In this document: piece after piece, positions 827-43,022 of the stretch
Layout: each line of letters starts with the position of its first letter
How positions within the stretch are numbered: position 1 is the stretch's first letter
DNA from: Holosporaceae bacterium
GTDB taxonomy: Bacteria; Pseudomonadota; Alphaproteobacteria; UBA3830
Assembly (NCBI GenBank): GCA_031282425.1
Contig: JAITDT010000063.1
Location: forward strand, 1 to 45,249
Length of the DNA stretch: 45,249 bases
Reading direction: 5' to 3'
Notes under the pieces: model-generated
Told to the model about the DNA's origin: nothing
Databases searched by the model: none
The model's input: the letters and a program-made list of their open reading frames with translations, nothing else
Translations under genes and position numbers: made by a program

Positions 827-1003
827 TCATGGTGTGCTCAACGTATTATGAATCTGAGTAAACTTATTATTGAGCGAACCACCTAATTCCTTCATAACAG
901 CAATGGCGGCGATAGCTATCAGGCTAGCGATGAGGGCGTACTCCACAAGCGCCGCACCATCGGATTCTTTTAAAAATTTAGATACTTTTCTTAGCATTCT
1001 CAT
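827..1003 (-). CDS. Flp/Fap-type pilin
   Basis: MRMLRKVSKFLKESDGAALVEYALIASLIAIAAIAVMKELGGSLNNKFTQIHNTLSTP has the typical Flp pilin motif (G-A-x-x-VEYALIxxLIAI). Start chosen at the internal Met rather than the ORF-track start. Confidence 0.8.
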   Translation of the reverse strand: MRMLRKVSKFLKESDGAALVEYALIASLIAIAAIAVMKELGGSLNNKFTQIHNTLSTP

Positions 1004-1164
1004 AACTCCTCTTGAAAAAACCAACTCTCTATATTTTATAGTAAACGCCACAAAGCTTACTAAAACTTTAATAAAAAAGAATTTATTTTCTCTCAGCTTT
1101 TGAGTGAGAAAGAAGTACCAAAATTTGTGAAATGTAGTATCATTGTATTGATAGTGGAGTAAAA

Positions 1165-1995
1165 ATGATCAAAGATACTGAGATATTGGCTACAAACGAT
1201 GTGATGTTCAAGATTATTCTGGGAGATCCCAGGCACTCTCGGCTATTGATTCATTTTCTGAACGCCGCCATAAAATCTGAAACTCCAATAACCAGCGTTG
1301 AAATAACAAATACTGAATTAACTCCAGAATATGTGTGGCAAAAGGGCTCGCGTCTCGACGTCAGAGCAAAAACTCAGAATGGTGAATTAATAAATGTAGA
1401 GATGCAATGTGGCGCCGATAGACATATGGCTGCGCGGGCGCTTTTCTATTGGTCGAGAATGTTTGCAGGACAGATCGAAGTTAGCGATCAATATTACAAG
1501 CTGAAGCGAACGATTTCCATTAATATCTTGGATTTCAGGCTTTTCGACGATGAAAGATACTGGCGCAAAGGTCATATAACCGACGACGAAACGAAGAGAA
1601 ATATTACAGAATTGCTGGAAATGCAGTTTATAGAGCTGAACAAATTACGTCAGGTGGAAAAAGAAAGTCCGATAACTTTTTGGGTTGAGTTTTTTAGAGA
1701 TCCATATTCCAAGAGCGTTAAAGCTCTGTGCGATTACGTGCCAGAGATTAAAGAAGCAAAGCAAATATATGAAAAGGCGAAATCTGATCCAAAGGCTCGC
1801 GCGCTAATTGAGACCAGAGAAAAAGCATTGCGTGACTACACCAACGATATCGCATGCGCTAAAGACGAAGGAAAAGCGGAAGGAAAAATTGAGATGGTTC
1901 TTGAATTGTTGCGGGCTGGCGTAGATGTAGATATTATAGCGCAAACTTCCGGCCTTTCGATTGAAGAGATAGAATCATTAAGAAATAAGCAGTAG
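1165..1995 (+). CDS. Rpn-family recombination-promoting nuclease / PD-(D/E)XK nuclease-family transposase
   Basis: N-terminal NDVMFKIILGD, nuclease-like LDVRAKTQNGELINVEMQ, and a C-terminal Glu/Lys helical tail (EGKAEGKIEMVLELLRAGVDVDIIAQTSGLSIEEI) typical of this family. Confidence 0.85.
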   Translation: MIKDTEILATNDVMFKIILGDPRHSRLLIHFLNAAIKSETPITSVEITNTELTPEYVWQKGSRLDVRAKTQNGELINVEMQCGADRHMAARALFYWSRMFAGQIEVSDQYYKLKRTISINILDFRLFDDERYWRKGHITDDETKRNITELLEMQFIELNKLRQVEKESPITFWVEFFRDPYSKSVKALCDYVPEIKEAKQIYEKAKSDPKARALIETREKALRDYTNDIACAKDEGKAEGKIEMVLELLRAGVDVDIIAQTSGLSIEEIESLRNKQ

Positions 1996-38249: not shown

Positions 38250-38416
38250 GATTTTGGGGAGAGTTCTATTAAAAGTATTGAATGCTTTGTATCCACGTCA
38301 TAAATGACGGGAATATAAGGCACGTTTGGCAAATTCTTTACGCTTGCGATATTATAACTGCTTAATTGTTTGTTAACCTTTATATGCCATAATGATTCCG
38401 ATTGCAGGAGTTAACT

Positions 38417-39442
38417 ATGCGTATATTTTATATTCTATTATGCTTTTTGACAATTTTTGATTCCATAACATCGATGGATAATGTTATGGAAGAGGCTTTA
38501 CGACGTATTCTGGACAAGTCGAACCCCAAAAGTCGCGCCATAACGGCAAGCCGCGAGCAATTTAGAAATGTTCCCAGGGCAGGGTGGGCACAAACTCAAA
38601 CTGCTATGCGCCCTCGTTGTCTAAGTTCCAATGGGGAGCAGGTAGCCGGTATCAAAGATAACCGCATCTGTGTACATAACCGCAATACCGGAAATAATAG
38701 TGCTATAACCCCCATGAATGGGGAAATTATTGATATATGTTTCTATGGCAATACCCATATTGTCTATACTATTCGCGGCACCGATGGACGCATCAGATTA
38801 ATAGTGATTAATCTGCGTACTAGAGAGCAAAATGATCTGACTCCGGCACAAAATGCAAAATCTATTCACGTAACAATGGCGAATGGTGCGATTATCGCCA
38901 TTTCCCATATTGGTTCTTCGTATTCCGCTTGCAAAATTAATCCAAATAACTTAACTACGCAGATTGTGGGAACTGGCTCGGCGGATCGAGTCAATGAAAA
39001 AATTGTTTTTTTAGATGAGGCTCACAGTTGGAAAATTATAGTCCATGAAAATAAAGTAGCGTTAGTGCATACAATTTTGAGAACAGGAGAACAACAAAGT
39101 ACGTTTATACAGGGGCAATTCAGATTGTCGGATGTTAAAGCTCTCTTTGGTAAGAATGGAAATCCATTAATTATCAGTCTTCATCAAGGGAAAAAAATAA
39201 ACCACGCTCCATTTGAACCATCGAAGGAGCCACACATCCGCTACCTTAACCAAACTTTCAGTAATTGGGATGTAATCAGTAGTACGGCGGACGGCAACAT
39301 TTGGCTTTTGCGCATTTATAATATTCAAAGCGCCGATGAATACGTTCTCTATAACGTCAGAAATAGATGTATAGAGCGCAATATAACAAACTCTAGTGTT
39401 AGTACCTTCAGTACCTCCGCCCGCAAACTCAGCGTCATGTGA
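38417..39442 (+). CDS. secreted beta-propeller-like protein, resembling the propeller part of S9 prolyl oligopeptidases
   Basis: RBS GCAGGAG before ATG 38417; signal peptide MRIFYILLCFLTIFDSITS; blade-like stretch HIVYTIRGTDGRIRLIVINLRTREQNDLTPAQNAKSIHV. No alpha/beta-hydrolase domain follows. Confidence 0.5.
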   Translation: MRIFYILLCFLTIFDSITSMDNVMEEALRRILDKSNPKSRAITASREQFRNVPRAGWAQTQTAMRPRCLSSNGEQVAGIKDNRICVHNRNTGNNSAITPMNGEIIDICFYGNTHIVYTIRGTDGRIRLIVINLRTREQNDLTPAQNAKSIHVTMANGAIIAISHIGSSYSACKINPNNLTTQIVGTGSADRVNEKIVFLDEAHSWKIIVHENKVALVHTILRTGEQQSTFIQGQFRLSDVKALFGKNGNPLIISLHQGKKINHAPFEPSKEPHIRYLNQTFSNWDVISSTADGNIWLLRIYNIQSADEYVLYNVRNRCIERNITNSSVSTFSTSARKLSVM

Positions 39443-39536: not shown

Positions 39537-39548
39537 GGGGGGGGGGGG
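39537..39548 (+). repeat. poly-G tract (12 G), intergenic
   Basis: AGATTTAA-G12-ATTGCCC, between the propeller gene and tRNA-Glu. Confidence 0.95.
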
Positions 39549-39619: not shown

Positions 39620-39695
39620 GTCCCCATCGTCTAGAGGCCTAGGACATCGCCCTTTCACGGCGACAACACGAGTTCGAATCTCGTTGGGGATACCA
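39620..39695 (+). tRNA. tRNA-Glu (anticodon TTC), CCA encoded
   Basis: Cloverleaf: acceptor GTCCCCA/TGGGGAT, anticodon arm TCGCC-CTTTCAC-GGCGA, T-arm ACGAG-TTCGAAT-CTCGT, 3' ACCA. Confidence 0.95.
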
Positions 39696-40696: not shown

Positions 40697-40777
40697 TCCG
40701 TGTGCTCCTCAGATAAAAGTGGGCATTCTATAAAATTTAATTTATACTTCTTATTCGTATTTACAAATAGCAGGAAA

Positions 40778-42511
40778 ATGTTGAATTTTTTGTTAAAAAA
40801 GGTAGCGAAGACCACAAAAGAAATCAATGAACTCTCTGCTGAACCGATTAGAAAATTAATGGAAAAAATTGACTCTATTCCCGAAAACTACGTTTCTCAT
40901 ATTAAAAATATCGTTATTTTGATTTTATCATATGGGATAACGTCGCTTTTCACCTATCCGGAATTCAAATTTTATGTTTTTTTGAAGGAAATTTTCTCCT
41001 TACTATGCGCCTACGGCGCAATTTTCTTTTGGTTCATGGATAGAATAGAGGGCGAAACGCCGTTCCGGGTAGCTGTCGGAACAACCGCCTGCGTCGCGCC
41101 GGTTTTGTTTATAAACAATCCACCGATGGTGGCGTTAGTGAGTTTATTGTTGGTAATTCTTCTGGAATTTATTATTTTTGAGTATATTCGCGGATGTAAT
41201 TTGTTTTCTCCATTAATTCCAGTTTATGCAATTTGTGAGAGTGTCCAAGATGCAGAAAAAATAGAGAAACTTTCCAGCAAATACAAGATATTAGAACTAA
41301 TAGTTTTGTCAGAGCAACGAGATTGCAGATATAGTTCGTTGCGCGCTCTAGAAGATTTAAGAAACTGGCTACGAAAGATTAATTATTTACCATTTTATCC
41401 AACGCCTCGAAGACTTTTGTATCTTGGAGAAAAAGCAAACCATGATAATTTGATAAAATTACTGGCATTGGCGGAAGATTATGCCATACCGCTATTTCTG
41501 ATAAAAAATACGTTTGATAATTCGTTAGCCGTCTCTCCGATTTCTTTCGGCGACGTCGAAGACGTTATGGCTGCACCGGAGGATAGCGCGCCATTGGCTG
41601 CCGCCCTTAAGAATAAACGTGTGTGGATCTGCTACGACGGCAGGGGCTGCGTCCTGGACCTGATTCGAGAAATGTCTCTTGCGGATTCCATAAGTCTGAC
41701 AATTTTTTGCGAAACAGAAAGACTAATGATGGAAGCTGAGCAGGAATTGACGCGCCAATGTCCAAACAAAAATTACAAGATAAAAATTGCCGACATAAAT
41801 TTGTTGCCTATACAGGGAACGAAGCCGGATGTGTTTTTCTATTGCGCGCCGATAAAATCTTTCCGTTCCGGAGAAGATAATCTAAAGGAAGCCGTCGTGA
41901 AAAATGTGCTGGATACGCGACGTTTGATAAGCTTCGCTCAATCCAGCAAAATCCCCGTAGTTTTTGTTTTGTCGAGTTCAAGAGCTCTTCGCATCAATAA
42001 TTCGATTGGAGCAACTCTGCGTTTGGGCGAGCTTAACGTCCAGTTTGCAGACTCCCAAAGTAAAAAGATGCATACAAAATTTAAAATTATCCGCATACCG
42101 GAGGAAAAAGCGTGCGGCATGAGAGAAGCGGCGCTACCGTACACGCTTTGCAACAGCGTAAATCTAGACATACCGGAAGAAGAAGCAGCCGACGTCTGTT
42201 CCAGAAAAGAAATAATAACTCCGCTGATAAAAGCAACAGCGGCGCTGCTGAAGAGTAACGATACAACCTCCAGCGTCTATACTGTTACTCCGCAAAATAT
42301 AGCGAACTTTGAGGAATACGCAAAAAATATGCATGGTATGGCAGAACCGCTGGAAAAAACTGCCATCGCTCATGTTATGCGAACGAAATTTTCATCTGCG
42401 AAATCCGCGCTATACGAGCAAACATGGACGATGAAAGAACTAAACGAAATGGGTTCTCGAGAGTTAATAGCTGCGGTGTTCCAGGAACTTAATGAGAAAA
42501 TAAACGCCTAA
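40778..42511 (+). CDS. CapD/FlaA1-like nucleotide-sugar dehydratase family membrane protein, apparently catalytically degenerate
   Basis: N-terminal TM block, then ISFGDVEDVMAAPEDSAPLAAALKNKRVWICYDGRGCVLDLIREM...KPDVFFYCAPIKSFRSGEDNLKEAVVKNVLDTRRLISFAQSSKIPVVFVLSSSRALRINNSIGATLRLGELNVQFA, colinear with the CapD consensus. Start set at MLNFLLKKV. Confidence 0.6.
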   Translation: MLNFLLKKVAKTTKEINELSAEPIRKLMEKIDSIPENYVSHIKNIVILILSYGITSLFTYPEFKFYVFLKEIFSLLCAYGAIFFWFMDRIEGETPFRVAVGTTACVAPVLFINNPPMVALVSLLLVILLEFIIFEYIRGCNLFSPLIPVYAICESVQDAEKIEKLSSKYKILELIVLSEQRDCRYSSLRALEDLRNWLRKINYLPFYPTPRRLLYLGEKANHDNLIKLLALAEDYAIPLFLIKNTFDNSLAVSPISFGDVEDVMAAPEDSAPLAAALKNKRVWICYDGRGCVLDLIREMSLADSISLTIFCETERLMMEAEQELTRQCPNKNYKIKIADINLLPIQGTKPDVFFYCAPIKSFRSGEDNLKEAVVKNVLDTRRLISFAQSSKIPVVFVLSSSRALRINNSIGATLRLGELNVQFADSQSKKMHTKFKIIRIPEEKACGMREAALPYTLCNSVNLDIPEEEAADVCSRKEIITPLIKATAALLKSNDTTSSVYTVTPQNIANFEEYAKNMHGMAEPLEKTAIAHVMRTKFSSAKSALYEQTWTMKELNEMGSRELIAAVFQELNEKINA

Positions 42512-42581: not shown

Positions 42582-42610
42582 TTGACATTGGGAAGTGGCA
42601 TCAGTAGCAT
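42582..42610 (+). promoter_or_regulatory. sigma70-like promoter of the poly-G gene
   Basis: TTGACA (42582-42587), 17-nt spacer, TAGCAT (42605-42610), 31 nt upstream of ATG 42641; RBS-like AAAGGA. Confidence 0.65.
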
Positions 42611-42640
42611 TCGTCGGTGTTTTGATGAAAGGAAAATGAA

Positions 42641-43022
42641 ATGATGAATTCAAGAATTATAGCTTTAGCAGTAGCCGCTGTTGTGATGACACCACTGGCA
42701 GATGGGATGAAAGGGGGGGGGGGGGGTACCACTGTCTCTCTCTGAACAGGTAGGGAAAGATTGCCTAGTAAACGTATTACGTAGAGATGGAATGAATTGT
42801 GAGATGCTCAATTTATCACGAGGCGGAGTATCCTTCCTAAAAGTGTCGTTTACGGAAAGTCAGTGGGATTTTATCGTACAAAGTGGCACCTACGTGGATG
42901 TGTTCGGAGGAACCGGTACTGGTTTAACATATTTCGCTAAGGATACTGATGGCAATGTGGCTATACATTGTAGTCAGGCTCAGGCATTAAGGCTGGACTA
43001 TGCATTAGGACACCTCTTATAA
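42641..43022 (+). CDS. putative phase-variable small secreted protein, frame-interrupted by G14 (OFF as sequenced)
   Basis: Upstream frame MMNSRIIALAVAAVVMTPLADGMKGGGGG... hits TGA soon after the tract. Deleting one G fuses it to ...VPLSLSEQVGKDCLVNVLRRDGMNCEMLNLSRGGVSFLKVSFTESQWDFIVQSGTYVDVFGGTGTGLTYFAKDTDGNVAIHCSQAQALRLDYALGHLL*. Downstream frame is ORF 42792-43022 of the track. Confidence 0.65.
42713..42726 (+). repeat. poly-G tract (14 G) inside the secreted-protein ORF
   Basis: GGGATGAAA-G14-TACCACTG, counted directly. Confidence 0.97.

Follow-up and report, generated by a model that had tools for sequence, protein, structure and literature searches.

A candidate poly-G switch in an orphan gene of an uncultured gut alphaproteobacterium

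A run of fourteen guanines, close to the start codon of a short gene, raises a question: is it a switch that turns the gene on and off, or the by-product of a genome in which such runs expand? The gene lies near the end of the window, by which we mean the whole stretch of 45,249 nucleotides that was analysed. A sequence-only reading had proposed it as a candidate phase-variable exported factor, OFF in this copy. The host genome, G000, is a MAG of about 1 Mb (968,650 bases in 67 contigs). Its RecA is nearest to those of MAGs labelled Holosporaceae or Alphaproteobacteria, at 82-91% identity; the isolate names of some of them point to ruminant guts, and those of others belong to what we take to be a termite-gut sample series.

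Anatomy and reading frames of the locus

The promoter-like pair TTGACA-N17-TAGCAT, the motif AAAGGA, the ATG, the signal-peptide-like leader and the G14 tract are all present, as in the sequence-only reading (Table 1). The tract begins after codon 24. The leader combines a basic residue with a hydrophobic core, its Kyte-Doolittle mean reaching 3.1 over an 11-residue window, and a cleavage motif is not obvious on reading. The promoter match is weaker evidence than the other elements of the locus: there are four promoter-like sites in 800 bp, where 1.7 are expected, and the one in Table 1 is the best of them. The gene upstream, whose product has 603 amino acids, would provide a surface-glycan context by its Pfam match, consistent with a putative surface role for the window gene.

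Table 1. Features of the candidate switch gene (window coordinates) and poly-G tracts in surface-glycan-type and pilin-like genes of G000 (contig handle and position)
Feature	Position	Strand	Remarks
Sigma-70-like promoter TTGACA-N17-TAGCAT	42582..42610	+	TTGACA 42582-42587, TAGCAT 42605-42610, spacer 17 nt; 10/12 consensus positions; consensus match only
Shine-Dalgarno-like AAAGGA	42628..42633	+	7 nt 5' of ATG 42641
Leader MMNSRIIALAVAAVVMTPLADGMK	42641..42712	+	signal-peptide-like hydrophobic stretch; cleavage site not clear; putative export
G14 tract	42713..42726	+	candidate slipped-strand switch; ON if n = 1 mod 3; this copy OFF
Downstream open frame	42729..43022	+	97 codons + stop; PLSLSEQVGKDCL...DYALGHLL; orphan
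Upstream neighbour gene	40700..42511	+	nucleotide-sugar dehydratase/epimerase-like; Polysacc_synt_2, PF02719 E=3.7e-13
Methyltransferase	C14:33866		in frame; 106 aa before, 221 aa after tract
FkbM methyltransferase	C17:6757		in frame
Methyltransferase-like	C59:7769		in frame, open through tract
Methyltransferase	C40:8105		out of frame
Formyltransferase	C41:16849		out of frame
Radical SAM	C56:3218		in frame
PIG-L deacetylase	C48:1064		in frame
PIG-L deacetylase, end of gene	C56:10483		tract before nucleotidyltransferase
Pilin-like leader	C4:7437		in frame
Pilin-like leader	C46:21081		in frame
Pilin-like leader	C14:38594		out of frame
Pilin-like leader	C14:41493		out of frame
Pilin-like leader	C60:6592		out of frame
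Pilin-like leader	C12:529		in frame, into shortened protein
Pilin-like leader	C9:940		stop directly after tract
Pilin-like leader	C45:52		cut by contig end
Pilin-like leader	C45:27457		cut by contig end

With 14 G, translation from the ATG yields the 34-aa product MMNSRIIALAVAAVVMTPLADGMKGGGGGTTVSL. When the tract is set in silico to 10, 13 or 16 G, the products have 125, 126 and 127 aa and end in ...LDYALGHLL, and every other length from 9 to 18 G yields 33-38 aa: over this range, a change in the number of guanines flips the product between full-length and truncated. The rule that n = 1 mod 3 is ON, with a fused product of about 126 aa, is thus correct; a peptide of that predicted product is DGMNCEMLNLSR. 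One detail needs amending, since the TGA that closes the short frame had been placed ten codons past the last glycine block, and the actual distance is six codons. At 14 G, the downstream frame reads TGA AAG GGG... directly 5' of the tract, and consequently has no upstream start; its next start, the ATG at 42792 (76 aa), has no obvious ribosome-binding site.

Fourteen guanines exceed the threshold of 7-8 at which such tracts become unstable (PMC6321876). This count comes from a single MAG assembly and may be imprecise. Runs of 14 identical bases are difficult for both short and long reads, and an assembly error could hide a real tract of 13 or 16 G, which would make the gene constitutively ON. 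We consider such an error very improbable: 13 or 16 G would still lie within the length range known as unstable, and other tracts of the same assembly occur in either frame state.

An orphan downstream frame

Is the sequence beyond the tract a gene at all? An open frame of 97-98 codons has a chance of about 0.0017 per frame, and a hydrophobic leader with a basic start, open for at least 20 codons, follows only 0.12% of the ATGs in shuffled sequence. The codon score of the downstream frame, 0.004, is the best of the six frames. It falls inside the distribution of wrong frames (-0.04 +/- 0.09, 95th percentile 0.10), true gene chunks scoring 0.20 +/- 0.09 with a 1st percentile of 0.009. The training set is weighted to ribosomal and housekeeping genes, so that an acquired orphan is expected to score low anyway.

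The database search of the fused protein that the sequence-only reading had proposed yields no family or homologue: Pfam, NCBIfam, PHROGs and PDB return only noise (PHROG 21978 at E=0.013; PDB at E>=0.46). The fused or downstream protein has no relative in 12 genomes of the genus, nor does the window gene have one in 40 relatives, nor a match in phage and plasmid sets, nor in GTDB genomes and viral contigs by a short-pattern search, which detects close relatives only. The AlphaFold single-sequence model of the body has a pLDDT of 47 and is not usable. Synteny offers no orthologous tract for comparison, since rplI is found in 11 of the 12 genus genomes and neither the 603-aa gene nor the orphan adjoins it in the other genomes.

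The absence of detected relatives, together with a codon score near the 1st percentile of real gene chunks, would suit a neutral account, according to which poly-G expanded in a prone genome, here within a decaying or non-coding stretch, and the 97-codon frame is a chance opening or the remnant of a pseudogene. The small probabilities of the open frame and of the leader argue against it, as do a ribosome-binding site and a promoter at proper spacing. Taken alone, the window gene amounts to a modest orphan; what is seen across the genome and the genus is the more interesting result.

Poly-G tracts across the genome and the genus

In its 969 kb the genome holds 51 G tracts of length 9 or more, against about 3 expected, and about 32 of them reach at least 12 G. 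The expectation is derived from the dinucleotide-shuffled window, which gives 0.14 nine-G matches per 45 kb, scaled up to the genome; the window itself has two tracts of at least 9 G. Outside the 220 kb described next, tracts were counted by pattern searches. In 220 kb of the same genome, the lengths of G/C runs are bimodal, with two runs of length 8, none of 9 and a peak at 12, and those of A and T runs decay smoothly. With the caveat that these 220 kb consist of loci picked for their tracts (12 or more), which biases the run-length spectrum, the G/C pattern is that of maintained, expanded repeats. Loss of MutS does not explain the expansion: each of the 12 genomes of the genus has MutS, and it is present in the host.

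Many of these tracts lie between genes and are flanked by no long frame, and some poly-G expansion may therefore be neutral. A second tract of the window, G12 at 39537-39548 (+), has a 346-aa ORF (38402-39442) on one side and a tRNA at 39620 on the other. Its flank AAAAAGCAGAYTTAA-G recurs beside an intergenic G14 at L017:938-951, and the two sites share 27 bases including the tract. Intergenic tracts, this G12 among them, speak for the neutral account of the switch locus as well. We nevertheless hold that account to be unlikely, since tracts recur within recognisable surface-type genes and in common leaders.

Tracts of G10-G15 lie inside or abut glycan-type enzymes (L020, L024, L025, L029, L032, L033, L034 and L018:3204-4196). 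The families are methyltransferases, FkbM, formyltransferase, radical SAM, PIG-L and GNAT, in both frame states, and such enzymes may, judging from their families, act on surface glycans. Two related poly-G genes on different contigs, at L023:3992-4291 (-) and L031:2846-3237 (-), contain EDLLSYSEDKVAWNWFSEKQRMDIVKARTRVPECVFRYL and EELLSYSDMDLAWLVCSPEQQIKLVKARTPVPAKAFQYL respectively; this paralogous family has no Pfam match.

A further group of tracts, at least seven, occupies the leaders of Flp-pilin-like genes, a family of about 9-10 members in this genome. The tract stands 12-31 codons past the ATG, and is followed by the segment KKSSGATLVESALxxALVVIAAIGGLGYLG, whose best match to Flp/Fap (PF04964), at E=3.4e-4, is under the curated cut-off. 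A prepilin-like GAxxxE motif is present in the sibling poly-G genes of this genome and of its congeners, whose weak matches to PF04964 or PF07811 are all under the Pfam cut-off. Frame states are mixed among the members with a poly-G leader (L011, L014, L015, L018, L026, L027, L028, L035), of which MRLFAKISDFLTRGGGG...KKSSGATLVESALIITLVVVAAIGGLGYLG is an example. These genes are longer than a tract-free, textbook-looking Flp-type pilin in the window, MLRKVSKFLKESDGAALVEYALIASLIAIAAIAVMKELGGSLNNKFTQIHNTLSTP, at 830-1168 (-).

A search of the genome with the pilin segment returns 15 matches up to E=1, with 11 at E<=1e-3; one is within the tract-free pilin, at 866-994 (-), and none is at 42641-43022. 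The switch gene also lacks the GAxxxE motif of the pilin-like siblings, and we reject its assignment to Flp/TadE-like pilins on these two grounds. Kinship of its leader with the pilin leaders is not supported: the letters are alike near the tract (CTCTCTGGCAGAGG), yet the protein is different.

We now turn to two congeners, G008 and G010, which contain at least 29 uninterrupted tracts in one common context, CAAC-Gn-CAGGCTCT; two further copies, on C118 and C130 of G008, carry an interrupted tract. The shared leader is MLSKIMTVMQ-R-Gn-QALRRARIGAIFIEF, and the TadE-like genes are often in tandem (L116-L131, L133-L135). Those that were read mostly lead into TadE-like proteins of 175-341 aa, which match PF07811 only at E=0.04. 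The tract has 12 G in 22 of the 29 cases, 13 G in five and 11 G in two; these lengths, at otherwise near-identical sites, indicate that tract length varies among paralogues. Of the lengths present, only 11 G (n = 2 mod 3) connects the leader ATG with the body, which leaves just two of the 29 genes in frame. Exact G12 tracts are few or absent in most other members of the genus, a rough comparison since the pattern misses other lengths.

The excess of out-of-frame 12 G over in-frame 11 G leaves fewer than one third of the congener copies ON, as might be expected if transcriptional or ribosomal slippage gave a fixed, low frameshifted output at any tract length, with no switching at the level of DNA. 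This alternative seems quite improbable for the window locus, given that the present tract length puts several genes of G000 in frame, and that an excess of one length may equally reflect mutational equilibrium or selection for a mostly OFF state.

A probable contingency locus of a familiar type

In a genome this rich in poly-G inside surface-related genes, with both frame states represented, a contingency locus is the best explanation of the switch gene. We give a probability of about 0.7 to the reading that it is a simple-sequence-repeat contingency gene, one among many poly-G switches spread over the genome. This reading rests on genome context more than on the gene alone. It agrees with the earlier proposal of phase variation and an OFF copy, which gains from the frame logic and from the poly-G-rich surface-related genes; the exported nature of the product is suggested by the leader.

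The mechanism would be as follows. The promoter and ribosome-binding site would drive a short protein of about 126 aa, exported or membrane-anchored, in which the tract would encode a poly-glycine linker joining the N-terminal leader to the body. Slipped-strand mispairing in replication would lengthen or shorten the tract by a G. Of every three tract lengths, one would then place the body in frame, the ON state, and the other two would end translation no more than about 12 codons from the tract, the OFF state of this copy. The genome-wide set would act chiefly on surface glycans and pilin-like proteins.

The closest comparison is Campylobacter jejuni, in which poly-G tracts of at least 7 are reported to be highly mutable and a main source of variation, and those of at least 8 have been shown to switch expression (PMC6321876). 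In Campylobacter, 77% of poly-G/C tracts are within ORFs and lengths 9-10 dominate (PMC6321876); strain NCTC 11168 has 29 loci of 7 or more (PMC4965091). By analogy, the tract set of the host resembles a phasome of this kind: a small genome rich in poly-G, with the tracts chiefly on the coding strand and often in genes for surface structures, where frame would set translation ON or OFF. Unlike Campylobacter, the host is an alphaproteobacterium from an uncultured gut lineage, its tract mode is 12 rather than 9-10, many of its tracts are in pilin-like leaders, and the window gene has no homologue. The host also has MutS, which Campylobacter is not known to have.

Phase-variable surface or exported genes of Neisseria have 5' homopolymers near the signal-peptide region, where the frame sets full-length or truncated product. 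The window tract is likewise near a signal-peptide-like leader, and frame decides the product; unlike those loci, its product has only about 126 aa, and no sequence relation to them was found.

The window locus is probably a new contingency locus of an already known type. Contingency loci have been studied mainly in a few cultured pathogens. Our literature searches, which were incomplete and are no proof of novelty, yielded no paper on phase variation in Holosporales, none joining Flp pilins with homopolymeric tracts or phase variation, and none on phase-variable poly-G tracts in Alphaproteobacteria; they turned up no earlier report of the device in this little-studied gut group.

A broader proposal stands, in our judgement, at even odds: that an uncultured genus of animal-gut Alphaproteobacteria has a poly-G phasome of Campylobacter scale, in which pilin-like families (about 9-10 genes here, at least 29 in two congeners) are switched through a shared leader, with the congener copies mostly OFF, and in which control of this type extends to a new exported factor, the product of the window gene. 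If this is true, contingency switching would gain a new setting in multi-copy pilin-like families that have one poly-G leader in common, and these uncultured gut Alphaproteobacteria would rely on the known device to vary their surface, perhaps in response to phages, to protists or to the defences of a host.
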